Assembly (NCBI RefSeq): GCF_030253575.1
Contig: NC_080561.1
Span: forward strand, 9,582,501 to 9,646,500
Direction of reading: 5' to 3'
DNA length: 64,000 nucleotides
From: Rhododendron vialii
Taxonomy: Eukaryota > Streptophyta > Magnoliopsida > Ericales > Ericaceae
The notes under the pieces were generated by a model. It ran no database searches. It saw nothing but the letters and a program-made list of their open reading frames with translations, and had not been told where the DNA came from. Shown here one piece after another: positions 1 through 25,605 of the stretch (the first letter of the stretch is position 1; each line of letters starts with the position of its first letter). The translations under genes and the position numbers were made by a program.

Positions 1-3000
1 TTTCCACTCGTGGATAGCTAGACTCGCTAAGTGTATCGGTTTTCTACTCAACGCATCCGCCACGACATTCGCTTTCCCCGGGTGATATTGCAATTCGAAA
101 TCGTAGTCCTCTAAATGCTCCATCCAACGGCGTTGTCGAAGGTTAAGTTCCTTTTGAGAGAATAAGTATTTCAAACTTTTATGATCGGAAAAGACTTCAA
201 ACTTCTCACCGTACAAGTAATGGCGCCAACTTTTCAAAGCAAAAACGACGGCTGCAAGTTCTAGATCGTGGGTAGGGTAGTTTCGCTCGTGAGTTTTCAA
301 CTGTCGCGATCCATACGCCACTACTCGCCCTGCTTGCATCAACACGCACCCTAACCCTTCCTTAGACGCATCACAATATACAGAGTAGCCAACTCCACGT
401 TCGGGCACAATCAGAACCGGTGCAGTCGTCAATCGCTTCTTCAATTCTTCAAAGGCCATCTCACATGCGTCACTCCAAACAAAACGAGTCCCCTTACGTG
501 TTAATCTAGTCATTGGCGCTGCTAAACAAGAGAAATCAAGAACAAAACGGCGGTAGTACCCGGCCAAACCCAAAAAACTACGAATTTCGAACACGTTCTT
601 CGGTCGTTGCCAATTCATAACAGACTCTATTTTTCCTGGATCGACGGACACGCCACCCTTCGAAACCACGTGACCCAAAAATTTGACTTCGGATAGCCAA
701 AACTCACACTTACTAAGCTTGGCGTACAATTGGTGCTCCCTTAAGATTTCAAGAACAATGGTGAGATGCGATTGGTGTTCCTCCTCCGTTGGCGAATAGA
801 TAAGGATATCATCGACGAATACAACCACAAAACGATCAAGGTATGCACGAAAGATACGATTCATTAAGTCCATGAATGTAGCTGGAGCGTTCGTCAATCC
901 GAAAGGCATAACAACGAATTCGTAATGGCCATAACGAGTGCGGAATGCGGTCTTAGGAATATCCTCTCTCCGAACCCTCAACTGGTGGTAACCGGACCTC
1001 AAATCAATTTTGGAAAAACAGGTCGCACCCCGAAGTTGATCAAACAAATCATCGATTCTAGGCATGGGATACTTATTCTTAATGGTGACTCGGTTTAGCT
1101 TACGATAATCGATACACAAGCGGAGTGAACCATCCTTCTTTTGCGCAAAAAGAGCCGGTGCTCCCCACGGTGACGTACTCGGACGAATGAATCCTAAGTT
1201 CTCCAATTCCTGCAACTGAGTCTTCAACTCTCTCAATTCGGCTGGCGCGAAACGATACGGAGGTATAGAGATAGGAGCGGTACCGGGTAGTAAATCGATA
1301 ACGAATTCAATCTCTCTTTCAGGAGGTAAACCAGGTAACTCTTCAGGAAAAACATCGGGAAATTCGCGAACTACTAAAGGTAACTCCCCACGTGTCGACA
1401 AATCTTCATCTAACGTCAAACTCGCCAACAAGGAATAAATTGACTCGCGCTCTCGAGACCCACATAGATACGGTTCCAACGGCTCCCGACGCTCCCCAAA
1501 GAATTGGAAACAAGGACCCTCAAGAGGACAAATACGAACTCGACGCTTGAAACAATCGATGGTAGCATGAAAGGTAGATAGCCAATCCATTCCCAAGATA
1601 AGATCAAACCCCGACATTCCCAAAACGATGCAGTCGAATACAAAACGATGGTCACAAATGACTAACTCGCAATCTCGACAAATATGACCAAGAGGCGTTC
1701 TACCCCCTAATGGTGTCTCAACAAACAAAGGAGGACTAAGACTCTCCGTTTCCAATTCCAAGGCACACACAAATGATGCAGCAATGAATGAATGCGATGC
1801 TCCAGAATCAAAGAGTACTTTAGCAAAGGAGTTGAACAAAAGAAATGTACCCCTCACAACGGATGCTTCTGGAACCTGAGAAATAGAAGGTGAAGCATTC
1901 GAGTTGATGTTGAAAACACGCCCCTGGGTACTCTGACCTTGTGCAAAACCTCCCCTCTGACCAGAACCCTGAGTAGGCGCGGAAGAACTCGCTCCCTTGT
2001 CACCCCCGGAACTCTGAACCGACGTAGTCTGGCGGAAGTGAGGTTGTTGCTGCCTCTGAGTGCCCCTAAACTGTTGGCCAACATTATACCCCGTTCCCGG
2101 CTGCTGCACGGAACCCGACTCACTTTGCACTATCGACCCCTGAGGACAATTCCTAGCGAGATGATCCATCTTCCCACAAACATAACAAGCCTTCTGGAGA
2201 TGTGGACACTGAGCACGAACGTGTCCAGGTTGATTGCACTTGTAGCACACAGACGGAGGTCTAGACAAAGCACCCCGAGTCCCTGAAGAAGAAGGTACCC
2301 TAAAGTTGGATTGGTTAGATGGTTGCTGAGATGGTTCCCTCTGTCTCTTCCGTCCTTGACTCCCAAAGCTTCCTGACGATGAACTCACACTCACAACTTG
2401 TTGCCTCGGCTCCCAAACTCCCCTATTCCTCTGTGCTTCCTTTGGTATTTCAATACTTCTCGCACACTCAACAACCTCGGCGTATTTTGTCTTACGTTGC
2501 ACCATTACCATTCTCCTCACGGTATTATGAAGCCCTTTCTCAAAACGTCTACATTTCCTTTCCTCCGTCGCCACCAACTCTGGCGCAAATCGAGATAAAG
2601 ACTGAAACTTTTGAGCGTATTCCGACACGGTCATACCCCCCTGCTCCAACTTCTCAAACTGATCTCTCAACTGCTCACGACTAGTCTCTGGAAAGTATTG
2701 TTCCTCAAATAATGTCTCAAACTCGGCCCACGTCAAATTTTCAACATCCGGTTCATTTACTTGAGCTACGGTCCTTGCCGCTCTCCTCGCATCCTTCCTA
2801 GATTCTAGGACAGACTCCCACCACTCATTGGCTTCCCCGGTAAGTTGAACAGCCACGATATTCACTCGTAAATCGTCTTCGGTAATCTTAAGAGCATTGA
2901 AAAGTTTACGGATTTGTGCTAACCAATGATCGGCCACAAGAGGATCACTACTTGTCCCATCAAACGTCGGTGGATTCCTACGGCTAAATTCTCGCATTGC

Positions 3001-3264
3001 CGATAAGGCTCGGTTGTCTGCATTTTCTCTAGGAGCTTGGTTGAACAGATTTGCAGCTGTAAGTGCTGCGACAAGATCCCTAGCAAATTGAGTTTGATTG
3101 GGTGGTATTTCTGCAGCCCTACCGGCCCCAGCCCCCGGATTCCTACCTGGGTTCTCCCCATGCTGACTAACCTCATCCTCTGGTGGCACCCCACGGCCAC
3201 GACCACGGCCACGACCTCCCCGGTTTCCTGCCACACCCCGCCTAACACGCGATTTCGGAGGCAT
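1..3264 (-). CDS. Gypsy Gag-protease-RT polyprotein, partial (left copy)
   Basis: This is the N-terminal two thirds of the gypsy polyprotein, cut by the window edge. It corresponds to the 5' half of the frame in the middle copy, offset by 6915 bp. The start codon at 3264 begins [10 protein letters not shown], followed by an Arg/Gly-rich stretch. Present are the Gag region, two CCHC zinc knuckles ([14 protein letters not shown] and [14 protein letters not shown]), the aspartic protease motif DSGASHSF, the RT active site FVDD and part of RNase H. The rest of RNase H, the integrase and the tail lie outside the window, so intactness cannot be judged. Confidence 0.9.
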
Positions 3265-3499
3265 TTTACTACAAGATATAAGAAAGGAAAACTATTAATC
3301 ACAACATCACAACTATGTCCCCAAATTCCCAACACAGGTTAATAACAACTCTACACCACTCTACGATATCGAAAATGCAATGCCACGTAATCATACGAAT
3401 GTTAGTCACACAAGCATGCACAAGTCATGTAAAAAAATATATATATAATTTTGAACCCATGAGACGAAACGTCTCCCCACGGTCGCTAGGTGTTCTAAA

Positions 3500-3515
3500 C
3501 CTCGCTTTGATACCA
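3500..3515 (-). other. Primer binding site of the gypsy element
   Basis: Read on the minus strand the sequence is TGGTATCAAAGCGAGG, starting three bases after the LTR end. It resembles the initiator-methionine tRNA primer site (TGGTATCAGAGC) used by many plant LTR elements. Equivalent sites follow the other two LTRs at the same offset, near 10415-10430 and 17329-17344. Confidence 0.75.
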
Positions 3516-4067
3516 AGTTGTCACACCCTCGATTTTTAACATAAATATAAATGATTTCCATAAATAAAATCTCGCCATAATTTGTACGATAACCAAAATG
3601 AAGTAGCGATCCCAAAATATTACATCTTCGGCTCCGAGGCCCAAATTAACGCAAGTACTGAATATTCAAGAGTTAAAGGTTACAATATTCCATAGTCAAA
3701 AGATTTACTATAAAGTTACAAATACATCTTCAAAGAGATTTACAAAGATGCCTAAGTAACTCCTCAATCGATAGCTTTCAAAATAATGATCACATCCAAG
3801 CATTCCAAGCATGCACGCTATTGTCCTGTATTAGTACCTGAAAATGATAATAGGCTTGAGCTACACTAGCCCAGTAGGAAATTCTACGCTAACATTATAT
3901 GCAAGAGAAATGCAAGGATGATCACAAGGAAGAACGAGATACAGACCACACAATAGGCAATAACCGAGGCTTAACAATCCGACAAACTCAGTATGAAATT
4001 TGGTATACACCTCAATCTTTAACCGTTTCACTCTCCATGTGTTCAATATCGCTTCACGTTAAGTGTC

Positions 4068-4219
4068 ATGAGCCGAAGCTCCTGCCGGGCTAATTATGGG
4101 ACCCCGATATCCCCTGCCAAGCGCCCACCGAGAAGGTTAGGCCTTGAGTGATCATTATGAGCATAAGCTCCTGCCAGGCTAATTATGGGACCCTGATATC
4201 CCCTGCCAGGCACCCACCC
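4068..4219. repeat. 63-bp direct duplication within the gypsy LTR
   Basis: Two imperfect copies, 4068-4130 and 4157-4219, are spaced 89 bp apart start to start. Each contains AGCTCCTGCC, GGCTAATTATGGGACCC and GATATCCCCTGCCA. The same pair recurs in the other two LTRs. It looks like an old tandem duplication inside the LTR, and a role is not evident. Confidence 0.85.
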
Positions 4220-4496
4220 GTCGATGGGCCCCAAATGTTCTCGTTGTGTCGACAAGTGTCCAAAAATCTCTTACTCACATAACGTGTCATTTCAATTTAA
4301 TCAAAGTCCATATGGAAATCAACGTCCAATTATACCAAACAAGGGGCGAGGGTTGCAAAGATACTCAACGAACTCAACGAATATGATCGATAGTGTTATG
4401 GAGTGATTTGGTGACGTTTGGAACAAGTTAGAAGCGATCGGGGGTCAAGACAATGGAGTCGGAACAAGAAACAAAACTTAGCCTTAAGGCATTGAA

Positions 4497-4651
4497 GTAT
4501 AGATACTATGAATTTCAGTATCTATACAACAGGCCTTAAAAACTTCCAGAGACCGATTGTATCGATACTGATTTAATCAGTATCGATACGACAGTAACCT
4601 AAGCCGTTCCAGAGATTCCTGTATCGATACTGAGAAGAGCAGTATCGATAC
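4497..4651. repeat. Cluster of three palindromes in the gypsy LTR
   Basis: Three inverted repeats share one core. The first is GTATAGATACT with its complement (arms 4497-4507 and 4517-4527). The second is a 15-bp perfect stem around one base, GTATCGATACTGATT (arms 4559-4573 and 4575-4589). The third is GTATCGATACTG (arms 4621-4632 and 4640-4651). They are about 60 bp apart and all read GTATxGATACT. The cluster is repeated in the other LTRs at 11412-11566 and 18326-18480. Confidence 0.92.
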
Positions 4652-5193
4652 AAATGGGTGTTCGAGCAGATTTTCTGCAGATTTCAAGAAATCCAACCAC
4701 AACAACAACAACAACAATAGACACGATTTCAAGCAAGGAGAGCACTTCTATTACATATATTGAGAGGTAGAATCCCTACCTCGAGGCCGAAGAACGAAAC
4801 CCACAAGAATTTCAAGCCCTAGCTTCCGAAAATCGAAACTGAGAGCAATACGACTCCACCGAGCTCCAACCGGTGAAATACGGACCACAATACGCGTAGA
4901 GGATGAATGTTTGAAGGTTGTGTTGAGTGGGTTTTGGGTTATTGGAGTGAAATTTGGTGAGAGGGCAAGAGAGAGGGAGAGAGCCGAGAGAGAGCTGGGA
5001 GAGAGATGAAAAAAAAGTGAAAAGGGAAAAAATTTCCCAGGCATATACACGGCACACACATGCACAAATTACACTAGCACCCATAACTTTCAACTCCTTA
5101 CACTTTGACCCCCAACTACAATATTCTCATTAATCCATCACTTTTCCATTTATAAAACAATAAAATTATAAAATGAATTTACGGGTCTCTACA

Positions 5194-5206
5194 TTCTACT
5201 CTCCTT
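5194..5206 (-). other. Polypurine tract of the gypsy element
   Basis: The minus strand reads AAGGAGAGTAGAA immediately before the LTR start TGTAGAG, the position expected for the plus-strand primer of an LTR retrotransposon. The middle-to-right junction carries the same tract at 12109-12121. At 19023 it is replaced by copia sequence, as expected at the outer end of the array. Confidence 0.75.
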
Positions 5207-5346
5207 AAAGAAATTTCGTCCTCGAAATTTTTCCAAGCCAAGGTTAGCTAACATATACATCATATATGCATGCAACAATCATAGCCATTAATCTTATGCA
5301 ACAAGTCAATTATCAAGACACGTAAATCTTAAACACTCACATTGGT

Positions 5347-8300
5347 TCATTCCGAAAATAGGTGCGGATACTTTTCTCTAACTTCGTCCTCCCTTTCCCA
5401 TGTCGACTCTTCTCTACCCTGATTGCTCCACAAGACTCGCACTAACGGTATCGTCTTACCCCTTAGTACTTGGTCGCGCGAATCTAGGATACGCATCGGT
5501 TCCTCTCCATAAGACACGTCGGCCTCCAACTCAAGTTCGGACCATTCTAACACGTGCGACGGATCCGGTTCATATTTCCTCAACATAGACACGTGAAACA
5601 CGTCATGTACACCCGATAGCTTCGGTGGCAACGCCAAACGATACGCGACCTCCCCAATTTTCTCAATGATATCAAACGGCCCAATATAACGTGGCGAAAG
5701 CTTCCCTTTCTTTCCAAAACGCGACAAACCCCTACGAGGCGATACTTTAAGGAATACGTGGTCCCCTTCTTCAAATGACAATGGGCGACGACGACGATCA
5801 GCATAGTTCTTTTGTCTACTTTGAGCGGTCAACAATCTTTGGCGGATCACTTTGACTTGTTCGGTTGTTCTTTCTTGTGCTTTCTTAAGGCGTTGGCGAA
5901 TAGCTTTCATACTCTCGGAGGTCTCCTTGATCATATCCGGCCCCACTAACGTAGCCTCACCTAATTCGGTCCAACACACAGGCGATCGACATGGTCTCCC
6001 ATACAAAGCCTCATAAGGTGCCATCTCGATACTAGATTGATAGCTATTATTGTACGCGAATTCGACTAACGGTAAGTGATCCTCCCAACTACCCTGAAAA
6101 TCCAAGACACAAGCCCGAAGCATGTCTTCCAAAATCTGAATCGTTCTCTCGGATTGCCCATCGGTTTGAGGATGATACGCAGTACTAAACAAAAGGTTGG
6201 TGCCCAAAGCGGCTTGCAAGCTTTGCCAAAAACGCGCGGTAAATCTCGGATCTCGATCGGACACGATAGATACGGGAATCCCATGAAGTCGGATAATCTC
6301 CCGAATATACAAACGGCTAAGTGCATCCACGGAATCGGTAACCTGAATAGGTAAAAAGTGTGCTGTTTTCGTCAAACGGTCCACGATTACCCAAATAGCG
6401 TCATGCCCCCTTGGCGACCTCGGTAAACCCGTAACGAAATCCATCGTCACGTTCTCCCACTTCCACTCGGCCACAGGCAATGGTTGTAACTCTCCCGCGG
6501 GTCGTTGATGTTCGGCTTTCACTTGTTGACACGTAAGACACCTGGATACGAAAATCACAACGTCCCTCTTCATTCCGGACCACCAAAATTGCCTACGCAA
6601 GTCATGATACATTTTCGTTCCCCCCGGATGGACGGCTAACGGTGAATGGTGAAACTCTCGCAAGATTTCTTCCCGACACGAAACGGGTACGAACAACTTT
6701 CCTTGATAGCGCAAGCTTTGATCGGCGTGTATCATCCACCCCTCTTGAGCTTTTCCACTAAGGAATTTAGCACGAAGTTCCTCCGCTTCTTCATCGTGTT
6801 GTTGTGCCTCAATTACTCGAGTCGATAAAGTTGATTGCACGGTCAAGTTGCATAACGTAACCCCTTCCCGAACTTCCTCGAAATGCGAAGCATAAAAGCC
6901 CAAATCGTTCATCATTTTCCACTCGTGGATAGCTAGACTCGCTAAGTGTATCGGTTTTCTACTCAACGCATCCGCCACGACATTCGCTTTCCCCGGGTGA
7001 TATTGCAATTCGAAATCGTAGTCCTCTAAATGCTCCATCCAACGGCGTTGTCGAAGGTTAAGTTCCTTTTGAGAGAATAAGTATTTCAAACTTTTATGAT
7101 CGGAAAAGACTTCAAACTTCTCACCGTACAAGTAATGGCGCCAACTTTTCAAAGCAAAAACGACGGCTGCAAGTTCTAGATCGTGGGTAGGGTAGTTTCG
7201 CTCGTGAGTTTTCAACTGTCGCGATCCATACGCCACTACTCGCCCTGCTTGCATCAACACGCACCCTAACCCTTCCTTAGACGCATCACAATATACAGAG
7301 TAGCCAACTCCACGTTCGGGCACAATCAGAACCGGTGCAGTCGTCAATCGCTTCTTCAATTCTTCAAAGGCCATCTCACATGCGTCACTCCAAACAAAAC
7401 GAGTCCCCTTACGTGTTAATCTAGTCATTGGCGCTGCTAAACAAGAGAAATCAAGAACAAAACGGCGGTAGTACCCGGCCAAACCCAAAAAACTACGAAT
7501 TTCGAACACGTTCTTCGGTCGTTGCCAATTCATAACAGACTCTATTTTTCCTGGATCGACGGACACGCCACCCTTCGAAACCACGTGACCCAAAAATTTG
7601 ACTTCGGATAGCCAAAACTCACACTTACTAAGCTTGGCGTACAATTGGTGCTCCCTTAAGATTTCAAGAACAATGGTGAGATGCGATTGGTGTTCCTCCT
7701 CCGTTGGCGAATAGATAAGGATATCATCGACGAATACAACCACAAAACGATCAAGGTATGCACGAAAGATACGATTCATTAAGTCCATGAATGTAGCTGG
7801 AGCGTTCGTCAATCCGAAAGGCATAACAACGAATTCGTAATGGCCATAACGAGTGCGGAATGCGGTCTTAGGAATATCCTCTCTCCGAACCCTCAACTGG
7901 TGGTAACCGGACCTCAAATCAATTTTGGAAAAACAGGTCGCACCCCGAAGTTGATCAAACAAATCATCGATTCTAGGCATGGGATACTTATTCTTAATGG
8001 TGACTCGGTTTAGCTTACGATAATCGATACACAAGCGGAGTGAACCATCCTTCTTTTGCGCAAAAAGAGCCGGTGCTCCCCACGGTGACGTACTCGGACG
8101 AATGAATCCTAAGTTCTCCAATTCCTGCAACTGAGTCTTCAACTCTCTCAATTCGGCTGGCGCGAAACGATACGGAGGTATAGAGATAGGAGCGGTACCG
8201 GGTAGTAAATCGATAACGAATTCAATCTCTCTTTCAGGAGGTAAACCAGGTAACTCTTCAGGAAAAACATCGGGAAATTCGCGAACTACTAAAGGTAACT

Positions 8301-10179
8301 CCCCACGTGTCGACAAATCTTCATCTAACGTCAAACTCGCCAACAAGGAATAAATTGACTCGCGCTCTCGAGACCCACATAGATACGGTTCCAACGGCTC
8401 CCGACGCTCCCCAAAGAATTGGAAACAAGGACCCTCAAGAGGACAAATACGAACTCGACGCTTGAAACAATCGATGGTAGCATGAAAGGTAGATAGCCAA
8501 TCCATTCCCAAGATAAGATCAAACCCCGACATTCCCAAAACGATGCAGTCGAATACAAAACGATGGTCACAAATGACTAACTCGCAATCTCGACAAATAT
8601 GACCAAGAGGCGTTCTACCCCCTAATGGTGTCTCAACAAACAAAGGAGGACTAAGACTCTCCGTTTCCAATTCCAAGGCACACACAAATGATGCAGCAAT
8701 GAATGAATGCGATGCTCCAGAATCAAAGAGTACTTTAGCAAAGGAGTTGAACAAAAGAAATGTACCCCTCACAACGGATGCTTCTGGAACCTGAGAAATA
8801 GAAGGTGAAGCATTCGAGTTGATGTTGAAAACACGCCCCTGGGTACTCTGACCTTGTGCAAAACCTCCCCTCTGACCAGAACCCTGAGTAGGCGCGGAAG
8901 AACTCGCTCCCTTGTCACCCCCGGAACTCTGAACCGACGTAGTCTGGCGGAAGTGAGGTTGTTGCTGCCTCTGAGTGCCCCTAAACTGTTGGCCAACATT
9001 ATACCCCGTTCCCGGCTGCTGCACGGAACCCGACTCACTTTGCACTATCGACCCCTGAGGACAATTCCTAGCGAGATGATCCATCTTCCCACAAACATAA
9101 CAAGCCTTCTGGAGATGTGGACACTGAGCACGAACGTGTCCAGGTTGATTGCACTTGTAGCACACAGACGGAGGTCTAGACAAAGCACCCCGAGTCCCTG
9201 AAGAAGAAGGTACCCTAAAGTTGGATTGGTTAGATGGTTGCTGAGATGGTTCCCTCTGTCTCTTCCGTCCTTGACTCCCAAAGCTTCCTGACGATGAACT
9301 CACACTCACAACTTGTTGCCTCGGCTCCCAAACTCCCCTATTCCTCTGTGCTTCCTTTGGTATTTCAATACTTCTCGCACACTCAACAACCTCGGCGTAT
9401 TTTGTCTTACGTTGCACCATTACCATTCTCCTCACGGTATTATGAAGCCCTTTCTCAAAACGTCTACATTTCCTTTCCTCCGTCGCCACCAACTCTGGCG
9501 CAAATCGAGATAAAGACTGAAACTTTTGAGCGTATTCCGACACGGTCATACCCCCCTGCTCCAACTTCTCAAACTGATCTCTCAACTGCTCACGACTAGT
9601 CTCTGGAAAGTATTGTTCCTCAAATAATGTCTCAAACTCGGCCCACGTCAAATTTTCAACATCCGGTTCATTTACTTGAGCTACGGTCCTTGCCGCTCTC
9701 CTCGCATCCTTCCTAGATTCTAGGACAGACTCCCACCACTCATTGGCTTCCCCGGTAAGTTGAACAGCCACGATATTCACTCGTAAATCGTCTTCGGTAA
9801 TCTTAAGAGCATTGAAAAGTTTACGGATTTGTGCTAACCAATGATCGGCCACAAGAGGATCACTACTTGTCCCATCAAACGTCGGTGGATTCCTACGGCT
9901 AAATTCTCGCATTGCCGATAAGGCTCGGTTGTCTGCATTTTCTCTAGGAGCTTGGTTGAACAGATTTGCAGCTGTAAGTGCTGCGACAAGATCCCTAGCA
10001 AATTGAGTTTGATTGGGTGGTATTTCTGCAGCCCTACCGGCCCCAGCCCCCGGATTCCTACCTGGGTTCTCCCCATGCTGACTAACCTCATCCTCTGGTG
10101 GCACCCCACGGCCACGACCACGGCCACGACCTCCCCGGTTTCCTGCCACACCCCGCCTAACACGCGATTTCGGAGGCAT
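5347..10179 (-). CDS. Gypsy Gag-Pol polyprotein with chromodomain-like tail (middle copy)
   Basis: A single open frame of 1610 residues that looks whole. In order: a basic Arg/Gly N terminus, a Gag core (~90-290), zinc knuckles (~340-353 and ~360-373), an aspartic protease (DSGASHSF, ~486), RT (~640-850, with [20 protein letters not shown] and FVDDILIYS), RNase H ([10 protein letters not shown] and [10 protein letters not shown]), an integrase with an HHCC finger (CLTCQQ) and a DDE core ([21 protein letters not shown]), then [10 protein letters not shown] and a C-terminal segment with [13 protein letters not shown] that matches the chromodomain of plant chromoviruses. These mediate particle formation, reverse transcription and targeted integration. 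The length fits a single-ORF plant chromovirus. Confidence 0.95.
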
Positions 10180-10433
10180 TTTACTACAAGATATAAGAAA
10201 GGAAAACTATTAATCACAACATCACAACTATGTCCCCAAATTCCCAACACAGGTTAATAACAACTCTACACCACTCTACGATATCGAAAATGCAATGCCA
10301 CGTAATCATACGAATGTTAGTCACACAAGCATGCACAAGTCATGTAAAAAAATATATATATAATTTTGAACCCATGAGACGAAACGTCTCCCCACGGTCG
10401 CTAGGTGTTCTAAACCTCGCTTTGATACCAAGT

Positions 10434-12108
10434 TGTCACACCCTCGATTTTTAACATAAATATAAATGATTTCCATAAATAAAATCTCGCCATAATTTGT
10501 ACGATAACCAAAATGAAGTAGCGATCCCAAAATATTACATCTTCGGCTCCGAGGCCCAAATTAACGCAAGTACTGAATATTCAAGAGTTAAAGGTTACAA
10601 TATTCCATAGTCAAAAGATTTACTATAAAGTTACAAATACATCTTCAAAGAGATTTACAAAGATGCCTAAGTAACTCCTCAATCGATAGCTTTCAAAATA
10701 ATGATCACATCCAAGCATTCCAAGCATGCACGCTATTGTCCTGTATTAGTACCTGAAAATGATAATAGGCTTGAGCTACACTAGCCCAGTAGGAAATTCT
10801 ACGCTAACATTATATGCAAGAGAAATGCAAGGATGATCACAAGGAAGAACGAGATACAGACCACACAATAGGCAATAACCGAGGCTTAACAATCCGACAA
10901 ACTCAGTATGAAATTTGGTATACACCTCAATCTTTAACCGTTTCACTCTCCATGTGTTCAATATCGCTTCACGTTAAGTGTCATGAGCCGAAGCTCCTGC
11001 CGGGCTAATTATGGGACCCCGATATCCCCTGCCAAGCGCCCACCGAGAAGGTTAGGCCTTGAGTGATCATTATGAGCATAAGCTCCTGCCAGGCTAATTA
11101 TGGGACCCTGATATCCCCTGCCAGGCACCCACCCGTCGATGGGCCCCAAATGTTCTCGTTGTGTCGACAAGTGTCCAAAAATCTCTTACTCACATAACGT
11201 GTCATTTCAATTTAATCAAAGTCCATATGGAAATCAACGTCCAATTATACCAAACAAGGGGCGAGGGTTGCAAAGATACTCAACGAACTCAACGAATATG
11301 ATCGATAGTGTTATGGAGTGATTTGGTGACGTTTGGAACAAGTTAGAAGCGATCGGGGGTCAAGACAATGGAGTCGGAACAAGAAACAAAACTTAGCCTT
11401 AAGGCATTGAAGTATAGATACTATGAATTTCAGTATCTATACAACAGGCCTTAAAAACTTCCAGAGACCGATTGTATCGATACTGATTTAATCAGTATCG
11501 ATACGACAGTAACCTAAGCCGTTCCAGAGATTCCTGTATCGATACTGAGAAGAGCAGTATCGATACAAATGGGTGTTCGAGCAGATTTTCTGCAGATTTC
11601 AAGAAATCCAACCACAACAACAACAACAACAATAGACACGATTTCAAGCAAGGAGAGCACTTCTATTACATATATTGAGAGGTAGAATCCCTACCTCGAG
11701 GCCGAAGAACGAAACCCACAAGAATTTCAAGCCCTAGCTTCCGAAAATCGAAACTGAGAGCAATACGACTCCACCGAGCTCCAACCGGTGAAATACGGAC
11801 CACAATACGCGTAGAGGATGAATGTTTGAAGGTTGTGTTGAGTGGGTTTTGGGTTATTGGAGTGAAATTTGGTGAGAGGGCAAGAGAGAGGGAGAGAGCC
11901 GAGAGAGAGCTGGGAGAGAGATGAAAAAAAAGTGAAAAGGGAAAAAATTTCCCAGGCATATACACGGCACACACATGCACAAATTACACTAGCACCCATA
12001 ACTTTCAACTCCTTACACTTTGACCCCCAACTACAATATTCTCATTAATCCATCACTTTTCCATTTATAAAACAATAAAATTATAAAATGAATTTACGGG
12101 TCTCTACA
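10434..12108 (-). repeat. Gypsy LTR, second in window
   Basis: Same boundaries and content as the LTR at 3519-5193, offset by exactly 6915 bp, and visually identical over the stretches compared. It joins the middle and right copies. Confidence 0.92.
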
Positions 12109-12261
12109 TTCTACTCTCCTTAAAGAAATTTCGTCCTCGAAATTTTTCCAAGCCAAGGTTAGCTAACATATACATCATATATGCATGCAACAATCATAGC
12201 CATTAATCTTATGCAACAAGTCAATTATCAAGACACGTAAATCTTAAACACTCACATTGGT

Positions 12262-15200
12262 TCATTCCGAAAATAGGTGCGGATACTTTTCTCTAACTTC
12301 GTCCTCCCTTTCCCATGTCGACTCTTCTCTACCCTGATTGCTCCACAAGACTCGCACTAACGGTATCGTCTTACCCCTTAGTACTTGGTCGCGCGAATCT
12401 AGGATACGCATCGGTTCCTCTCCATAAGACACGTCGGCCTCCAACTCAAGTTCGGACCATTCTAACACGTGCGACGGATCCGGTTCATATTTCCTCAACA
12501 TAGACACGTGAAACACGTCATGTACACCCGTAGCTTCGGTGGCAACGCCAAACGATACGCGACCTCCCCAATTTTCTCAATGATATCAAACGGCCCAATA
12601 TAACGTGGCGAAAGCTTCCCTTTCTTTCCAAAACGCGACAAACCCCTACGAGGCGATACTTTAAGGAATACGTGGTCCCCTTCTTCAAATGACAATGGGC
12701 GACGACGACGATCAGCATAGTTCTTTTGTCTACTTTGAGCGGTCAACAATCTTTGGCGGATCACTTTGACTTGTTCGGTTGTTCTTTCTTGTGCTTTCTT
12801 AAGGCGTTGGCGAATAGCTTTCATACTCTCGGAGGTCTCCTTGATCATATCCGGCCCCACTAACGTAGCCTCACCTAATTCGGTCCAACACACAGGCGAT
12901 CGACATGGTCTCCCATACAAAGCCTCATAAGGTGCCATCTCGATACTAGATTGATAGCTATTATTGTACGCGAATTCGACTAACGGTAAGTGATCCTCCC
13001 AACTACCCTGAAAATCCAAGACACAAGCCCGAAGCATGTCTTCCAAAATCTGAATCGTTCTCTCGGATTGCCCATCGGTTTGAGGATGATACGCAGTACT
13101 AAACAAAAGGTTGGTGCCCAAAGCGGCTTGCAAGCTTTGCCAAAAACGCGCGGTAAATCTCGGATCTCGATCGGACACGATAGATACGGGAATCCCATGA
13201 AGTCGGATAATCTCCCGAATATACAAACGGCTAAGTGCATCCACGGAATCGGTAACCTGAATAGGTAAAAAGTGTGCTGTTTTCGTCAAACGGTCCACGA
13301 TTACCCAAATAGCGTCATGCCCCCTTGGCGACCTCGGTAAACCCGTAACGAAATCCATCGTCACGTTCTCCCACTTCCACTCGGCCACAGGCAATGGTTG
13401 TAACTCTCCCGCGGGTCGTTGATGTTCGGCTTTCACTTGTTGACACGTAAGACACCTGGATACGAAAATCACAACGTCCCTCTTCATTCCGGACCACCAA
13501 AATTGCCTACGCAAGTCATGATACATTTTCGTTCCCCCCGGATGGACGGCTAACGGTGAATGGTGAAACTCTCGCAAGATTTCTTCCCGACACGAAACGG
13601 GTACGAACAACTTTCCTTGATAGCGCAAGCTTTGATCGGCGTGTATCATCCACCCCTCTTGAGCTTTTCCACTAAGGAATTTAGCACGAAGTTCCTCCGC
13701 TTCTTCATCGTGTTGTTGTGCCTCAATTACTCGAGTCGATAAAGTTGATTGCACGGTCAAGTTGCATAACGTAACCCCTTCCCGAACTTCCTCGAAATGC
13801 GAAGCATAAAAGCCCAAATCGTTCATCATTTTCCACTCGTGGATAGCTAGACTCGCTAAGTGTATCGGTTTTCTACTCAACGCATCCGCCACGACATTCG
13901 CTTTCCCCGGGTGATATTGCAATTCGAAATCGTAGTCCTCTAAATGCTCCATCCAACGGCGTTGTCGAAGGTTAAGTTCCTTTTGAGAGAATAAGTATTT
14001 CAAACTTTTATGATCGGAAAAGACTTCAAACTTCTCACCGTACAAGTAATGGCGCCAACTTTTCAAAGCAAAAACGACGGCTGCAAGTTCTAGATCGTGG
14101 GTAGGGTAGTTTCGCTCGTGAGTTTTCAACTGTCGCGATCCATACGCCACTACTCGCCCTGCTTGCATCAACACGCACCCTAACCCTTCCTTAGACGCAT
14201 CACAATATACAGAGTAGCCAACTCCACGTTCGGGCACAATCAGAACCGGTGCAGTCGTCAATCGCTTCTTCAATTCTTCAAAGGCCATCTCACATGCGTC
14301 ACTCCAAACAAAACGAGTCCCCTTACGTGTTAATCTAGTCATTGGCGCTGCTAAACAAGAGAAATCAAGAACAAAACGGCGGTAGTACCCGGCCAAACCC
14401 AAAAAACTACGAATTTCGAACACGTTCTTCGGTCGTTGCCAATTCATAACAGACTCTATTTTTCCTGGATCGACGGACACGCCACCCTTCGAAACCACGT
14501 GACCCAAAAATTTGACTTCGGATAGCCAAAACTCACACTTACTAAGCTTGGCGTACAATTGGTGCTCCCTTAAGATTTCAAGAACAATGGTGAGATGCGA
14601 TTGGTGTTCCTCCTCCGTTGGCGAATAGATAAGGATATCATCGACGAATACAACCACAAAACGATCAAGGTATGCACGAAAGATACGATTCATTAAGTCC
14701 ATGAATGTAGCTGGAGCGTTCGTCAATCCGAAAGGCATAACAACGAATTCGTAATGGCCATAACGAGTGCGGAATGCGGTCTTAGGAATATCCTCTCTCC
14801 GAACCCTCAACTGGTGGTAACCGGACCTCAAATCAATTTTGGAAAAACAGGTCGCACCCCGAAGTTGATCAAACAAATCATCGATTCTAGGCATGGGATA
14901 CTTATTCTTAATGGTGACTCGGTTTAGCTTACGATAATCGATACACAAGCGGAGTGAACCATCCTTCTTTTGCGCAAAAAGAGCCGGTGCTCCCCACGGT
15001 GACGTACTCGGACGAATGAATCCTAAGTTCTCCAATTCCTGCAACTGAGTCTTCAACTCTCTCAATTCGGCTGGCGCGAAACGATACGGAGGTATAGAGA
15101 TAGGAGCGGTACCGGGTAGTAAATCGATAACGAATTCAATCTCTCTTTCAGGAGGTAAACCAGGTAACTCTTCAGGAAAAACATCGGGAAATTCGCGAAC

Positions 15201-17093
15201 TACTAAAGGTAACTCCCCACGTGTCGACAAATCTTCATCTAACGTCAAACTCGCCAACAAGGAATAAATTGACTCGCGCTCTCGAGACCCACATAGATAC
15301 GGTTCCAACGGCTCCCGACGCTCCCCAAAGAATTGGAAACAAGGACCCTCAAGAGGACAAATACGAACTCGACGCTTGAAACAATCGATGGTAGCATGAA
15401 AGGTAGATAGCCAATCCATTCCCAAGATAAGATCAAACCCCGACATTCCCAAAACGATGCAGTCGAATACAAAACGATGGTCACAAATGACTAACTCGCA
15501 ATCTCGACAAATATGACCAAGAGGCGTTCTACCCCCTAATGGTGTCTCAACAAACAAAGGAGGACTAAGACTCTCCGTTTCCAATTCCAAGGCACACACA
15601 AATGATGCAGCAATGAATGAATGCGATGCTCCAGAATCAAAGAGTACTTTAGCAAAGGAGTTGAACAAAAGAAATGTACCCCTCACAACGGATGCTTCTG
15701 GAACCTGAGAAATAGAAGGTGAAGCATTCGAGTTGATGTTGAAAACACGCCCCTGGGTACTCTGACCTTGTGCAAAACCTCCCCTCTGACCAGAACCCTG
15801 AGTAGGCGCGGAAGAACTCGCTCCCTTGTCACCCCCGGAACTCTGAACCGACGTAGTCTGGCGGAAGTGAGGTTGTTGCTGCCTCTGAGTGCCCCTAAAC
15901 TGTTGGCCAACATTATACCCCGTTCCCGGCTGCTGCACGGAACCCGACTCACTTTGCACTATCGACCCCTGAGGACAATTCCTAGCGAGATGATCCATCT
16001 TCCCACAAACATAACAAGCCTTCTGGAGATGTGGACACTGAGCACGAACGTGTCCAGGTTGATTGCACTTGTAGCACACAGACGGAAGTCTAGACAAAGC
16101 ACCCCGAGTCCCTGAAGAAGAAGGTACCTTAAAGTTGGATTGGTTAGATGGTTGCTGAGATGGTTCCCTCTGTCTCTTCCGTCCTTGACTCCCAAAGCTT
16201 CCTGACGATGAACTCACACTCACAACTTGTTGCCTCGGTTCCCAAACTCCCCTATTCCTCTGTGCTTCCTTTGGTATTTCAATACTTCTCGCACACTCAA
16301 CAACCTCGGCGTATTTTGTCTTACGTTGCACCATTACCATTCTCCTCACGGTATTATGAAGCCCTTTCTCAAAACGTCTACATTTCCTTTCCTCCGTCGC
16401 CACCAACTCTGGCGCAAATCGAGATAAAGACTGAAACTTTTGAGCGTATTCCGACACGGTCATACCCCCCTGCTCCAACTTCTCAAACTGATCTCTCAAC
16501 TGCTCACGACTAGTCTCTGGAAAGTATTGTTCCTCAAATAATGTCTCAAACTCGGCCCACGTCAAATTTTCAACATCCGGTTCATTTACTTGAGCTACGG
16601 TCCTTGCCGCTCTCCTCGCATCCTTCCTAGATTCTAGGACAGACTCCCACCACTCATTGGCTTCCCCGGTAAGTTGAACAGCCACGATATTCACTCGTAA
16701 ATCGTCTTCGGTAATCTTAAGAGCATTGAAAAGTTTACGGATTTGTGCTAACCAATGATCGGCCACAAGAGGATCACTACTTGTCCCATCAAACATCGGT
16801 GGATTCCTACGGCTAAATTCTCGCATTGCCGATAAGGCTCGGTTGTCTGCATTTTCTCTAGGAGCTTGGTTGAACAGATTTGCAGCTGTAAGTGCTGCGA
16901 CAAGATCCCTAGCAAATTGAGTTTGATTGGGTGGTATTTCTGCAGCCCTACCGGCCCCAGCCCCCGGATTCCTACCTGGGTTCTCCCCATGCTGACTAAC
17001 CTCATCCTCTGGTGGCACCCCACGGCCACGACCACGGCCACGACCTCCCCGGTTTCCTGCCACACCCCGCCTAACACGCGATTTCGGAGGCAT
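12262..17093 (-). pseudogene. Gypsy Gag-Pol polyprotein, broken (right copy)
   Basis: Near-identical to the middle copy, with the same start ([10 protein letters not shown]), knuckles, protease, RT, RNase H, integrase and chromodomain-like tail. A small number of base differences separate it from the middle copy, and the frame is broken by about one lesion. The element is therefore young but probably not independently functional. Confidence 0.9.
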
Positions 17094-17347
17094 TTTACTA
17101 CAAGATATAAGAAAGGAAAACTATTAATCACAACATCACAACTATGTCCCCAAATTCCCAACACAGGTTAATAACAACTCTACACCACTCTACGATATCG
17201 AAAATGCAATGCCACGTAATCATACGAATGTTAGTCACACAAGCATGCACAAGTCATGTAAAAAAATATATATATAATTTTGAACCCATGAGACGAAACG
17301 TCTCCCCACGGTCGCTAGGTGTTCTAAACCTCGCTTTGATACCAAGT

Positions 17348-19022
17348 TGTCACACCCTCGATTTTTAACATAAATATAAATGATTTCCATAAATAAAATC
17401 TCGCCATAATTTGTACGATAACCAAAATGAAGTAGCGATCCCAAAATATTACATCTTCGGCTCCGAGGCCCAAATTAACGCAAGTACTGAATATTCAAGA
17501 GTTAAAGGTTACAATATTCCATAGTCAAAAGATTTACTATAAAGTTACAAATACATCTTCAAAGAGATTTACAAAGATGCCTAAGTAACTCCTCAATCGA
17601 TAGCTTTCAAAATAATGATCACATCCAAGCATTCCAAGCATGCACGCTATTGTCCTGTATTAGTACCTGAAAATGATAATAGGCTTGAGCTACACTAGCC
17701 CAGTAGGAAATTCTACGCTAACATTATATGCAAGAGAAATGCAAGGATGATCACAAGGAAGAACGAGATACAGACCACACAATAGGCAATAACCGAGGCT
17801 TAACAATCCGACAAACTCAGTATGAAATTTGGTATACACCTCAATCTTTAACCGTTTCACTCTCCATGTGTTCAATATCGCTTCACGTTAAGTGTCATGA
17901 GCCGAAGCTCCTGCCGGGCTAATTATGGGACCCCGATATCCCCTGCCAAGCGCCCACCGAGAAGGTTAGGCCTTGAGTGATCATTATGAGCATAAGCTCC
18001 TGCCAGGCTAATTATGGGACCCTGATATCCCCTGCCAGGCACCCACCCGTCGATGGGCCCCAAATGTTCTCGTTGTGTCGACAAGTGTCCAAAAATCTCT
18101 TACTCACATAACGTGTCATTTCAATTTAATCAAAGTCCATATGGAAATCAACGTCCAATTATACCAAACAAGGGGCGAGGGTTGCAAAGATACTCAACGA
18201 ACTCAACGAATATGATCGATAGTGTTATGGAGTGATTTGGTGACGTTTGGAACAAGTTAGAAGCGATCGGGGGTCAAGACAATGGAGTCAGAACAAGAAA
18301 CAAAACTTAGCCTTAAGGCATTGAAGTATAGATACTATGAATTTCAGTATCTATACAACAGGCCTTAAAAACTTCCAGAGACCGATTGTATCGATACTGA
18401 TTTAATCAGTATCGATACGACAGTAACCTAAGCCGTTCCAGAGATTCCTGTATCGATACTGAGAAGAGCAGTATCGATACAAATGGGTGTTCGAGCAGAT
18501 TTTCTGCAGATTTCAAGAAATCCAACCACAACAACAACAACAACAATAGACACGATTTCAAGCAAGGAGAGCACTTCTATTACATATATTGAGAGGTAGA
18601 ATCCCTACCTCGAGGCCGAAGAACGAAACCCACAAGAATTTCAAGCCCTAGCTTCCGAAAATCGAAACTGAGAGCAATACGACTCCACCGAGCTCCAACC
18701 GGTGAAATACGGACCACAATACGCGTAGAGGATGAATGTTTGAAGGTTGTGTTGAGTGGGTTTTGGGTTATTGGAGTGAAATTTGGTGAGAGGGCAAGAG
18801 AGAGGGAGAGAGCCGAGAGAGAGCTGGGAGAGAGATGAAAAAAAAGTGTGAAGGGAAAAAATTTCCCAGGCATATACACGGCACACACATGCACAAATTA
18901 CACTAGCACCCATAACTTTCAACTCCTTACACTTTGACCCCCAACTACAATATTCTCATTAATCCATCACTTTTCCATTTATAAAACAATAAAATTATAA
19001 AATGAATTTACGGGTCTCTACA
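17348..19022 (-). repeat. Gypsy LTR, outermost right (5' LTR of the array)
   Basis: Same termini as the other two LTRs. It ends at 19022 and is followed directly by gcaat and copia RNase H coding sequence, so this is the insertion junction. The 5-bp target duplication should reappear at the left end of the array outside the window. Only a few bases differ from the other LTRs. Confidence 0.92.
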
Positions 19023-22000
19023 GCAATGGCCATATACTCCGCTTCTGTTGTAGACAGCGCGACTGAAGCATGTAAAGTAGCTTTCCAACTAATGGCACTT
19101 CTGGACAGAGTAAAAACATAACCTGTCAGAGTCCTCCTCTTATTGTGGTCACCGGCAAAATCCGAATCAACATAACCAACAGCATAATTACCAGAATTGG
19201 CAACCCCAAACAATAGACCAACACCTGCAGTTCTGCACAAATACCGTAGTATCCATTTCATAGTCTCCCAATGTGCCTTTCCTGAACGCCCCATATACCG
19301 ACTAACGACACTAACTACATGTGAAATATCAGGACGAGTACATACCATGGCGTACATAAGGCTCCCAACTGTGCACGAATATGGAACCTGAGACATATAT
19401 TTCTCCTCATCCTCCGACTGTGGTGACAACTTATCTGAAAGTCGAAAGTGTGCTGCCAAAGGGGTACTGACTGGCTTCGAGTTCTACATGGCAAAGCGCT
19501 CAAGCACTTTAAGAACATAAGACTTCTGATTCAAAAATAATTTGCCAGCTACTCGATCTCTGCAAATCTCCATACCCAAAATACGTTTTGCTGCACCCAA
19601 ATTTTTCATCTCAAATTCACCACCTAACTGTTGTTTCAACCGATTGATTTCTGATACACTCTTGGCAGCAATAAGCATATCATCAACATACAACAGTAGA
19701 TAAGCAAATGAACCATCTGAAAGTTTTCAAAAATACACACAACTGTCATACTCACTCCTAGAATATGACTGGCTTATCATAAAAGTATCAAACCGCTTAT
19801 ACCACTGCCTAGAGGATTATTTGAGGCCATACAAAGACTTACGAAGTAAACAAACGTGATCCTTTTTACCAGAAACAACAAATCCCTCAGGCTGACGCAT
19901 ATAAATCTGTTCTTCAAGCTCGCCATGCAAAAACGCAGTTTTGACATCTAGTTGCTCTAACTCAAGATCATAACATGCAACAATAGCAAGTAAAGTGCGA
20001 ATGGAACTATGTTTTACAGCTGGTGAAAATACCTCATTGTAGTCAACACCCTCCTTCTGGCTGTATCCTTTCGCCACTAACCGAGCTTTGAACCGAGCGT
20101 CTTCTACCCCTGGAATACCTGATTTGCGCTTGAAGACCCACTTGCATCCAACAATCCTTTTCCCTTTCAGCGGTTCTACTAACTCCCATGTCTGATTCTT
20201 CTGAAGAGACTCAATCTCCTCATTCATAGCAACAAACCACTGTGCAGACTCAGCACTCAAAACAGCTTCTGTATAGCTTGAAGGCTCCTCATACTCAACT
20301 ATTTCAGCAACTGATAAAACATAGGTCACCATCTCAGAATAAGCCAAATACCTTTCAGGAGGCCGAATCTCCCTCATTGGCCTATCTTTAGCAATAATGC
20401 GTGGTTGCTCAACTAACACATCAACCTCTATGTCTGAACTCTTGAACTCTTCTTCAATTGGCTTTTCAATGTGCTTCTTCGCTGAGTCGGAAGATTCACC
20501 CAAAAACTCCACCTGCTTTGGAACACTATGTTCCTGAACTGTATCATCAACCTGTTTAGACCCCTTAATCAGATAATTTTCATCAAAAGTCACATCCCTA
20601 CTAATCAAAAACTTCAAATCATCAGAGCACCATAACCTGTACCCTTTAACACCTGCTGCATAACCCAAGAAAATACACTTCTTGGCCTGTGGCTCCAATT
20701 TACCTTCATTCACATGAGCGTAAACTGGACACCCAAAAACACGCAACACAGAATAATCAGCCGGATGACCTGACCATACCTCAAACGGAGTCTTACACTC
20801 AATAGCAGTCGACGGAGACCTGTTCACCAAATAGCATGTTGTGGTAATGGCTTTAGCCCAAAATTCTTTGCCCAATTTGGAATTGGACAACATACAACGT
20901 GCCTTCTCCAAAAGAGTCATATTCATTCGTTCAGCCACACCATTTTGCTGAGGGGTTTTTCTCACTATGTGATGCCTCACAATGCCCTCATCACTGCAAA
21001 ATCTATCAAACTCGCTAAGACAAAACTCCATACCATTATCAGTTCTCAAACGTTTTATTTTCTTACCAGTCTGATTCTCAATCAAAGTTTTAAACTGTTT
21101 GAATGTTTTAAAGGCGTCACTCTTATGTTTCAACATATACACCCAAACCTTACGAGAGAAATCATCGATAATACTCATAAAATATCGAAAAATACCTTTA
21201 GAAGTTACCTCTGCGGGACCCCAAAGATCCGAGGGAAAATAATCCACCGTGCCTTTGGTGCGATGAACAGCTGTACTGAATTTTACCCTGCACTGCTTGC
21301 CGTAAACACAATGCTCAAAGAAATCCAGCTTCTCAATTTTCTGGCCACTTAGCAGACCCTGTTTGCTCAAAACTGTCATCCCCTTCTCGCTCATATGCCC
21401 AAGGTGCATATGCCACAAACGAGTCAAGTCTGAATCTGAAACCTTGGATGAAACAACCGTTGCTGCAGCACCTATAACTGTACTGCCCTGGAGTGTATAG
21501 AGGTTACCACACTTCTGACCCTTCATCAGTACTAATGCATCCTTTGAGACTTTCAAAACTCCACCTTCATCGAGGAATTTGCAACCATGAGAATCAAAAG
21601 CACCCAAGGAGATAAGATTTTTCTTCAAATTTGGAACATGTCGAACCTCAGATAAAGTCCTAACAATACCGTCATGCATCCTAAGCTGAATCGTTCCTGA
21701 ACCAACAGTCTTACATGCCATGTTGTTGCCCATCAAAGCTGTACCTCCATTGACCGCCTCATAAGTAGAAAACCACTCTCTATGCGGACACATATGGTAT
21801 GAACATCCAGAATCTAGAACCCACTCGGTATTAGAGCGAGAATCGACCTCTGTAACTGATAACACATTATCTGACTCATTTGAACTTTCAACAATTCCAA
21901 CAATTACTTTACCCCCTTTCTGGTCTTCTTTTTCCTTCTCCTTGAGTTTTAAACAGTCATTTTTCCAGTGCCCGGGTTTCTTGCAATAATTGCACTTTCC

Positions 22001-22672
22001 CTTCTTCTTACCTGATGACCTGGATCTTCCCCTATTACTCGACTCCTCCCTTCCTGTTGTTCTTCCCCTAACAAACAAACCCTCCACATGTGCATCACCC
22101 TTACCTGACACTTTCTTCCTCAATTCTTTCGAATATAGGCTGGCCTTAACATCCTCCATGGATATCGTGTCTTTGCCATACAATAGGGTTATAACAAAGT
22201 GCTCATACGAAAGTGGTAAAGACCATAGCAAAATTAGGGTTTGGTCCTCATCCTCAATTTTACTATCAATATTTTTCAGATCCATAATAATGCGATTGAA
22301 CTCGTCTAAATGATCCTTAACAGGTATACCTTCTCGCATACGAAACGTATAAAGACGTTGTTTGAGATATAATCTGTTGGTGAGCGACTTCGTCATATAT
22401 ATGCCTTCCAACTTCAGCCAGATTCCTGCTGCTGAAGTTTCTTCTTCCACCTCGCGAAGAACGTCATCTGCCAGACTCAACTGAATAGAACTCAGAGCTT
22501 TGGCATCCGTATCATCCCAATCTTCCTCTTTGATTCCAGAATTAGTCTTGCCTAACAAAACCTTGTGCAATCCTTGTTGGGTTAACAGAGCCTTCATCTT
22601 TACTCTCCAAAGACTGAAACTGCTGCTCTGCCCATCAAACGTCGTAATCTCGAATTTAGACGCCATAACCAC
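19023..22672 (-). pseudogene. Copia Gag-Pol polyprotein, broken
   Basis: The longest open stretch (19817-22672, 951 residues) carries a UBN2-like Gag region, a CCHC knuckle CNYCKKPGHWKNDC (~230), the protease motif LDSGCSYHMC, a GAG-pre-integrase segment (LWHMHLGHMSEKGM), an integrase core (DLWGPAEVTSKG, DNGMEF, PQQNGVAERMN) and the start of RT (WELVEPLKGK, QLDVKTAFLHGELEE). Further left, the RT site YVDDML and RNase H residues TTEAEYMAIA are recognisable. A few lesions break the frame, and the gypsy insertion removes the end. Confidence 0.9.
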
Positions 22673-22706
22673 AATCGGAAACGAAACCCTAATTTTTGCA
22701 ACCTAA

Positions 22707-23039: not shown

Positions 23040-24318
23040 GTAGCCTTGCAGATGTCGTGGAGGAATGTAAATACCCTTGAGAAATATTTAAATTAGAAAC
23101 TTCGTTTAGAACAAATGAAAAATGATGATAGGATGGTATGAAGAAAAATGTGAAACACCAAAGAAGAATATGTATCTCTATATAGTTGTATAATGATTTG
23201 TGAAAGATAATTCTCACAACAATAGGATGGTAGGAAGAAAGAATGTGTAAGATCAACTCTTCTCGACCGGCGCAGATTTGAGCATACTCCTCGATATACA
23301 CTCTAGGACGATGAAAAAACACATCCTGACGAATCAAAGAACGGATAGTTTTCCTTCAAGGCAATGCCACAAGTGCGCATGTACTCAAAGCACTGAATTA
23401 TGTTTCCGCCACGGCATTCACTCCAAGCAGTGTAGTCAGTCAACTCTCGATCAAATGGTAAGAGGAGCCAAACTCCCACGTCCAAAGATGTGGTTGGCAC
23501 TACCCACCACATCAGTGACGACATGGGCAAACAAGTCAATGTAAATAAAAAAAGGTTAATGTTTGGCTTTAGCCTCAACTATATTTGATTTTTAGGGGAG
23601 GGATCAAAAGACTTTTGGGGCAAATTGGTGACTGCTCTAAGGAGTAGCAGAAATGACAATAGAATTAGAAACCTTACTGTTTTGCCATTTCTAATTCCAC
23701 TGTTTTGCCGTTTCTGCTGCTCCTTAGAGCAATCATCATTTTGCCGCAAAATCTTTTGTTTCCTTCGCTAAAAATCAAATATAGTTGAGGCAAAAGCCAA
23801 CAATAACCATTTTTAATTTACAGCGACTTGTTTTGCCCATGTCGTCATTGATGTGGCTAGTGCCAACCACATCTTTGGACGTGGGAGCTAACTTTTGTCT
23901 TCGAGAGTTGACTGACTACACTGCCTGGGGTGAATGCTGAGGCGGAAATATAGTTTAGTGCTTTGAGTACATGCGCATTTGCAGCACTGCCTTGAAGGAA
24001 AACTATCCATTTTTTGGTTCGTGAATATGAGTTTTTTCGTCGTCCTAGAGTGTATATCGAAGGGTACGCTCAAATCCGCACTGGTCGAGAAGAAGAGATC
24101 TTGCACATTCTTTCTTCCTACCATCCTATTGTTGTGAGAATTGTCTTTCACAAATCATTATACAACTATATATAGGTACACATTCTTCTTTGGTGTTTCA
24201 TATTTTACTTCCTACCATCCGATCATCATTTTTCTTAATGAAGTTTATAATTTGCATATTTTTCGTAGGGTAACTAAATCCTCTACGACATGTGCGAACT
24301 GCATTTTGTATAGGCTAC
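23040..24318. repeat. Large imperfect foldback, ~630-bp arms
   Basis: The segment 23040-23672 is an imperfect reverse complement of about 23690-24318, with the centre near 23680. Matching landmarks include TTGTGAGAAT/ATTCTCACAA, CACGTCCAAAGATGTGGTTG with its complement, CCTTGAAGGAAAACTATCC with its complement, and the arm tops GGAGTAGCAGAAA and TTTCTGCTGCTCC. Arms have diverged by point changes and small gaps. The left arm is cut exactly at the copia boundary, so its outer part should continue beyond that element. It is probably a non-autonomous DNA transposon or a duplicated segment in inverted order. No coding function is seen. Confidence 0.88.
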
Positions 24319-24926: not shown

Positions 24927-25605
24927 TGTTGGAACATGTGTGAAGGTTAGTCCCACATTGGAAAAATAGAAGAAGAATTGGTCCTTAATATACAATTGGA
25001 TGGCTCACCACTTACAAGGCTTAGCCTTTTAAGTGGATATGAGTCGTTCAATGTATATTCGGCTCTGGTAATGTGGTGGACTTTGTTGACACTCCCCAAT
25101 CAGACTGGGCCTAGAGCACAAGATCGAAGGCTCTGCACAATAAATTGGTATCAGAGCCCATGGCTACGATCTATGGGCAAGCAGATTCTCCTGGAAACAT
25201 CGGTGGCCTGCACAGAAACTCTTGATGGAGTAGGATGCCAGGAGGCAAGGTGACTCTCGATGGAGTAGGGTGCAGTGATGGACACAATGTTAAGAGGAGG
25301 ATAACATATTAGAATTCAGACGGAGTCATAGGTCATCAGATCAAGGGGGAGCTAGGGCCAAGACACGGGCTCACACACGAGGGGGATATTGTTGGAACAT
25401 GTGTGAAGGTTAGTCCCACATCAAAAAAATAGAAGAAGAATTGGTCCTTAATATACAATAGGATGACTAACCACTTACAAGACTTAGCCTTTTAAGTGGA
25501 TATGGGTCATTGAATGTATATTGGGCTCAGGTAATGTGATGGACTCTATTGACACTCCCCAATTAGACTGGACCTAGCGCACAGAATTGGAGGCTCCGCA
25601 CAACA
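24927..25605 (+). mobile_element. TRIM (terminal-repeat retrotransposon in miniature), complete
   Basis: Two 216-bp direct repeats (24927-25142 and 25390-25605), both starting TGTTGGAACATGTGTGAAGG, flank about 250 bp of non-coding internal DNA. A primer site TTGGTATCAGAGCCC follows the 5' repeat, and a purine tract ACGAGGGGGAT precedes the 3' repeat. The 5-bp duplication ccctc occurs at 24922-24926 and 25606-25610. It has no coding capacity, so mobilisation would depend on enzymes supplied by another LTR element. The repeats have diverged visibly, so it is older than the gypsy array. Confidence 0.92.

Follow-up and report, generated by a model that had tools for sequence, protein, structure and literature searches.

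Satellite DNA has been suggested to originate from tandem transposon insertions, and tandems of LTR retrotransposons alter genome size and the number of copies at a single locus. In plants, Morales-Diaz et al. (2025; PMC11899658) reported 266 tandem candidates in the rice pangenome and 28 curated tandems in one rice genome, together with 11 tandems each in Arabidopsis and almond and 130 in cotton. Gypsy elements were enriched among the tandems of the rice pangenome and of Arabidopsis, not significantly so in almond and cotton, a perfect outer 5-bp target site duplication (TSD) was present in 10 of the 28 curated rice tandems, and the origin of plant LTR tandems was left undecided (PMC11899658). 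The array described here, array A, is a good example of this structure, already known from rice, Arabidopsis, almond and cotton. Like the rice tandems (TLI1, TLI2 and the 28 curated cases; PMC11899658), which are mostly gypsy, it alternates LTRs with internal regions, ends in LTRs, is enclosed by an outer 5-bp TSD and consists of similar units. Like TLI2, it is also nested in another transposon, and unlike TLI1 and TLI2, which have two internal regions each, it has three. Its units can be placed in order by single-base differences, while in the rice study SNPs were noted in the TLI2 flanks and the order of events was not settled (PMC11899658). The Cassandra arrays (PMC7215508) are likewise LTR-sharing, head-to-tail and found in plants; unlike Cassandra, which is devoid of gag and pol, the array A element encodes gag-pol. 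Integrase-independent tandem formation, reviewed for yeast Tf1 and other elements (PMC12786077), would yield the same LTR-sharing product as array A.

The window, a stretch of 64,000 nucleotides (C5:9582501-9646500), belongs to a 532.6-Mb assembly of 13 contigs. The original prediction had at least three internal regions alternating with single LTRs at a period of 6914-6915 bp in an array that runs off the left edge. Self-comparison bears this out: positions 1-12108 match 6916-19022 at 99.93% identity and positions 1-5193 match 13830-19022 at 99.87%, with periods of 6915 and 6914 bp, and repeats so long and so alike cannot be due to chance. The 1-bp difference between the periods arises because the third internal region (Ic) carries a single-base deletion near window position 12531. 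A BLAST search with one period, run against the window and the stretches to its left, placed the entire array, which is oriented on the minus strand, at C5:9579104-9601522 (22,419 bp). It extends 3.4 kb past the left edge of the window, and the count now stands at four LTRs, all of 1,675 bp, alternating with three internal regions of about 5,240 bp, with an LTR at both ends (Table 1). Within the window lie three LTRs, two complete internal regions and 3,518 bp of the first internal region. The right edge, predicted at 19022, is exact: the LTR ends in ...TCTCTACA and the TSD gcaat follows. The stretch adjoining LTR d resembles a tRNA-iMet-type primer-binding site in its motif.

Table 1. Features of array A and of the element that it interrupts. 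Plain ranges are window positions; C5 ranges are contig positions.
Feature	Position	Strand	Remark
LTR a	C5:9579104-9580778	-	outside window
Ia, left part	C5:9580779-9582500	-	outside window
Ia, right part	1..3518	-	unit comparison
LTR b, inner, shared, 1675 bp	3519..5193	-	TG...CA on + strand, without TSD
Ib	5194..10433	-	open frame 5347-10206, gag to SH3_Tf2-1
LTR c, inner, shared	10434..12108	-	same sequence as LTRs a and b
Ic	12109..17347	-	unlike Ia/Ib; 1-bp deletion near 12531
LTR d, outer, 5' in element sense	17348..19022	-	3 substitutions (= 2 events) relative to LTRs a-c
Primer-binding-site-like sequence adjoining LTR d	17333..17347	-	sequence resemblance
Purine-rich, polypurine-tract-like stretch beside LTR c	12109..12131	-	minus-strand composition
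Host Copia element cut by array A	19028..22702	-	frames 18995-19483 and 19817-22702

Array A occupies a single insertion site. A single 5-bp TSD, GCAAT, surrounds the entire array (C5:9579099-9579103 and window 19023..19027), standing directly before the TG of the left end and directly after the last CA of the right end. No TSD is present at the inner LTRs, which abut the internal regions at their primer-site-like and purine-rich ends, and this absence rules out nested insertions as the source of the array. Once joined, the flanks form a single open frame across the junction, and a 273-base query made from them gave full-length matches of 95-96% identity at all 40 places scored among 163 candidates. 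A merger of two separate insertions is ruled out, as the same 5-bp duplication lies in both flanks and the rejoined sequence is contiguous elsewhere. The view that the array sits inside a Copia element is upheld by these flanks, which rejoin as a Copia-like open frame contiguous in 40/40 scored paralogues. Pfam finds Copia gag, integrase and RVT_2 domains in 19820-22702 and no match in 19025-19483 taken alone; we call the joined-flank frame Copia RT/RNase H because the frames of the same element further right match Copia domains and because the joined flanks contain what we assume to be an RNase H motif.

Pfam searches with pieces of the minus-strand frame recovered the Ty3/gypsy domain order gag-protease-RT-RNase H-integrase, with matches to Retrotrans_gag, a zinc knuckle, RVP_2, RVT_1, RT_RNaseH, Integrase_H2C2 and SH3_Tf2-1; the match to the rve core lies under its cut-off and that to Integrase_H2C2 over its own. 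At the expected C-terminal position, a chromo-like match (PF00385, E 4.5e-5 to 1.1e-4) reaches 22.5-23.7 bits against a cut-off of 25.1. The element had been called a young chromovirus: that it is a young Ty3/gypsy element holds, and the chromodomain part has to be tempered. Judged by its domain matches, it is a Ty3/gypsy element with a putative chromodomain-like C-terminus. Ic has lost one base near 12531; this puts the 3' end of its frame out of register, truncates the SH3_Tf2-1 match and removes the chromo-like match.

Elsewhere in the assembly, an internal probe found at least 16 places at ≥99% identity (40 scored), comprising the three internal regions of array A, two of a second array and 11 other loci. 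The latter represent at least 11 single elements, each seen with LTR probes as two LTRs at a distance of about 6.9 kb. Divergence is greater in the LTRs of two elements (C11 and C9:23.3 Mb; 95-98%), and all 10 of the 11 that were examined for TSDs have matching 5-bp TSDs. There are also at least eight solo LTRs, with both LTR ends at 96-100% and no nearby internal match among the matches listed in two internal searches, and a perfect 5-bp TSD stands directly at both ends of each (8/8). This count leaves out five places at which one or a partial LTR end was listed (C6:28.49, C11:33.19, C11:19.00, C1:3.14 and C5:3.50 Mb). The TSDs of the eight solo LTRs indicate that LTR-LTR recombination is active in this family. 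With 40 candidates scored per search, the family counts (2 arrays, 11 singles, 8 solo LTRs) are lower bounds. The statement that arrays are much rarer than single elements or solo LTRs is thus too strong here, and LTR tandems are reported to be common in plants (PMC11899658).

The second array, array B, lies 3.5 Mb from array A (C5:6107623-6123141) and has three 1,677-bp LTRs and two internal regions of the same family. It is flanked by the TSD AATTT. Contiguous paralogues exist for its joined flanks too, and the best of them aligns over 370/370 bases at 96%; a merger of two separate insertions is ruled out here likewise. Its units are near-uniform, with one substitution among them, and its frame is stopped by an in-frame stop after 383 open codons, a stretch over which the two units are identical, both carrying the stop. 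The repeat that flanks array B occurs four times at C11:13421826-13426005 with a spacing of about 1,260 bp, possibly as another tandem array.

The units of array A differ at few positions. There is no difference among LTRs a, b and c or between Ia and Ib; those that exist lie in Ic (16087, 16129, 16239, 16795 and near 12531) and in LTR d (18290 and 18849-18850). At window 2410/9325, Ia and Ib have C, and Ic has T at the equivalent 16239, as do 12/12 other aligned internal copies (two of array B and ten single loci). Ia and Ib carry the derived base, Ic keeps the ancestral one, and Ia and Ib are therefore sisters. The third unit (Ic and LTR d) has six changes of its own, namely three C:G>T:A changes and one deletion in Ic, and one C:G>T:A change and one adjacent two-base change in LTR d. 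All are absent from the other aligned copies except 16795, which is also found in one single locus (C6b) and may be older or recurrent. Furthermore, the three units have in common a set of alleles that no other aligned copy has, and therefore come from one founder lineage. Within it, the shared alleles place the units in the order in which Ic would have split first and Ia and Ib would have separated last.

Suppose that the six events were independent and spread evenly over an array that was complete by then: the probability that every one of them lands in the third unit is 0.00086, or about 0.003 without the event common to C6b. Insertion of three identical units in a single event, with nothing but independent mutation afterwards, is rejected by this clustering and by the common base of Ia and Ib (unless that base passed between the two by gene conversion). 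A gene-conversion patch in the third unit is unlikely, its differences extending over nearly the whole unit (12531-18850). Seven private internal substitutions are common to the array A units, within the range of 4-20 seen at ten single loci, and concerted evolution of an old array is accordingly not needed. In the LTRs, seven private substitutions exceed those of most single elements (0-3, one with 16), and five of the seven lie in one short stretch.

LTR a and LTR d differ at 3 of 1,675 positions, counted as two events, and the outer LTRs of array B at 1 of 1,677. At 1.3e-8 or 7e-9 substitutions per site and year, rates that are not established for this plant, these differences correspond roughly to 69-128 thousand years for array A and 23-43 thousand years for array B. 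Between the LTRs of single elements, changes are distributed 4:0 (C7), 4:0 (C11), 1:4 (C1) and 4:2 (C6b), and C:G>T:A is the commonest change between the LTR pairs of the family (13/22). At the single loci C7, C11 and C12, all LTR-pair changes fall in one LTR (4:0, 4:0 and 2:0).

We favour, with a probability of about 0.58, a single insertion followed by at least two growth steps through unequal LTR-LTR recombination. One Ty3/gypsy element would have inserted once into the Copia element, giving rise to the GCAAT duplication, and the locus would then have expanded stepwise, at least twice, through unequal homologous recombination among the LTRs of sister or homologous chromatids that had paired out of register; every step would have contributed one internal region together with one LTR. 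By the order of shared alleles, the unit at the outer end, Ic with LTR d, would have split off first and kept its own mutations, and the unit that had acquired the new base at 2410/9325 would have been duplicated last to give Ia and Ib. Stepwise growth is favoured because it explains both the clustering in the third unit and the common base of Ia and Ib; it also fits the solo LTRs, which would be the reciprocal or intrachromatid product of LTR recombination. Where three origins had been left open by the original prediction, the unit genealogy thus favours the one listed first, unequal LTR recombination. The numbers of changes in the third unit and in its sister lineage (6 versus 1, one-sided p 0.034 for equal ages) put a mild strain on this reading, which is eased if the LTR d changes predate the first duplication (4 versus 1 for internal regions only, p 0.19); similar unevenness is seen in the LTR pairs of some single elements (C7, C11, C1), less so in C6b. 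Base differences within near-identical repeats can also be polishing errors, which counts against stepwise growth.

An alternative is that a multi-unit cDNA, formed before integration by recombination of non-identical transcripts or circles, was inserted in one event. The single TSD around the whole of array A, the near-uniform units of array B (one substitution) and the identity of Ia and Ib beside an Ic and LTR d that differ over 12531-18850, as if from two templates, all agree with it, and Morales-Diaz et al. deemed insertion of a tandem transcript possible (PMC11899658). It requires at least two templates of the founder lineage, however, and a second copy was not found: no other LTR among the 40 matches listed equals the score of those of array A, and its common alleles occur at no other locus of the internal alignment (two array B units and ten single loci). 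The four isolated substitutions of the third unit are all C:G>T:A, as expected of chromosomal mutation, a weak point since 4/4 is not rare at 13/22. We regard a pre-formed multi-unit cDNA as unlikely. Less likely still is integrase-independent addition, in which a resident element, Ic with LTR d, would have taken up new cDNA at its LTR through either homologous recombination or annealing. The greater number of changes in the third unit would suit this route, which, according to a 2025 review, has a tendency to produce tandems and probably plays a part in plants (PMC12786077). Resident and newcomers nevertheless have all the array-specific alleles in common, so that the newcomer's source would have to belong to that lineage as well, and such a source copy was not found among the loci examined. 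Integrase-independent tandem formation as reviewed there (PMC12786077) is not firmly separated here from chromosomal recombination, and the common founder lineage leans against foreign cDNA. The lowest probability goes to the unit number, or the array itself, being an assembly artefact. Ia and Ib and LTRs a-c repeat without any difference, and because of this identity, counting the units needs reads that span about 15.9 kb; moreover, of the 10 contigs whose lengths were considered, 5 are an exact multiple of 2,500 bases long, a pattern that binned scaffolding would leave. Against an artefact stand (i) the lack of any N in the window, (ii) the alleles by which Ic and LTR d differ from the other units, which make two or more units real provided that the bases are correct, and (iii) the second array of the same family elsewhere.

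Under stepwise growth, the units of array A would form an ordered genealogy (Ic, then Ia and Ib) that records the growth and answers, at one locus, whether such an array arrives ready-made or grows in place; we offer this only tentatively, at somewhat under even odds. If the record is true, a family with 2 arrays, 8 solo LTRs and 11 single elements becomes a system that measures both products of LTR recombination. As the units are separable by single bases, and single elements, solo LTRs and arrays can be counted, the origin of LTR tandems is testable here in population haplotypes.

The surroundings of the array contain further repeats. About 45 bp to its left, C5:9579040-9579057 resembles the tip of the array's LTR in inverted orientation, perhaps as the end of an older related LTR; the array A LTR itself has no match at the loci left of the array. 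On the right, just upstream of the Copia gag frame, window 23117-24234 is a long foldback with 334-nt arms that are 89% complementary and with shorter nested arms. Window 24927-25140 and 25390-25603 form a 214-bp direct repeat, 89% identical and 463 bp from start to start.
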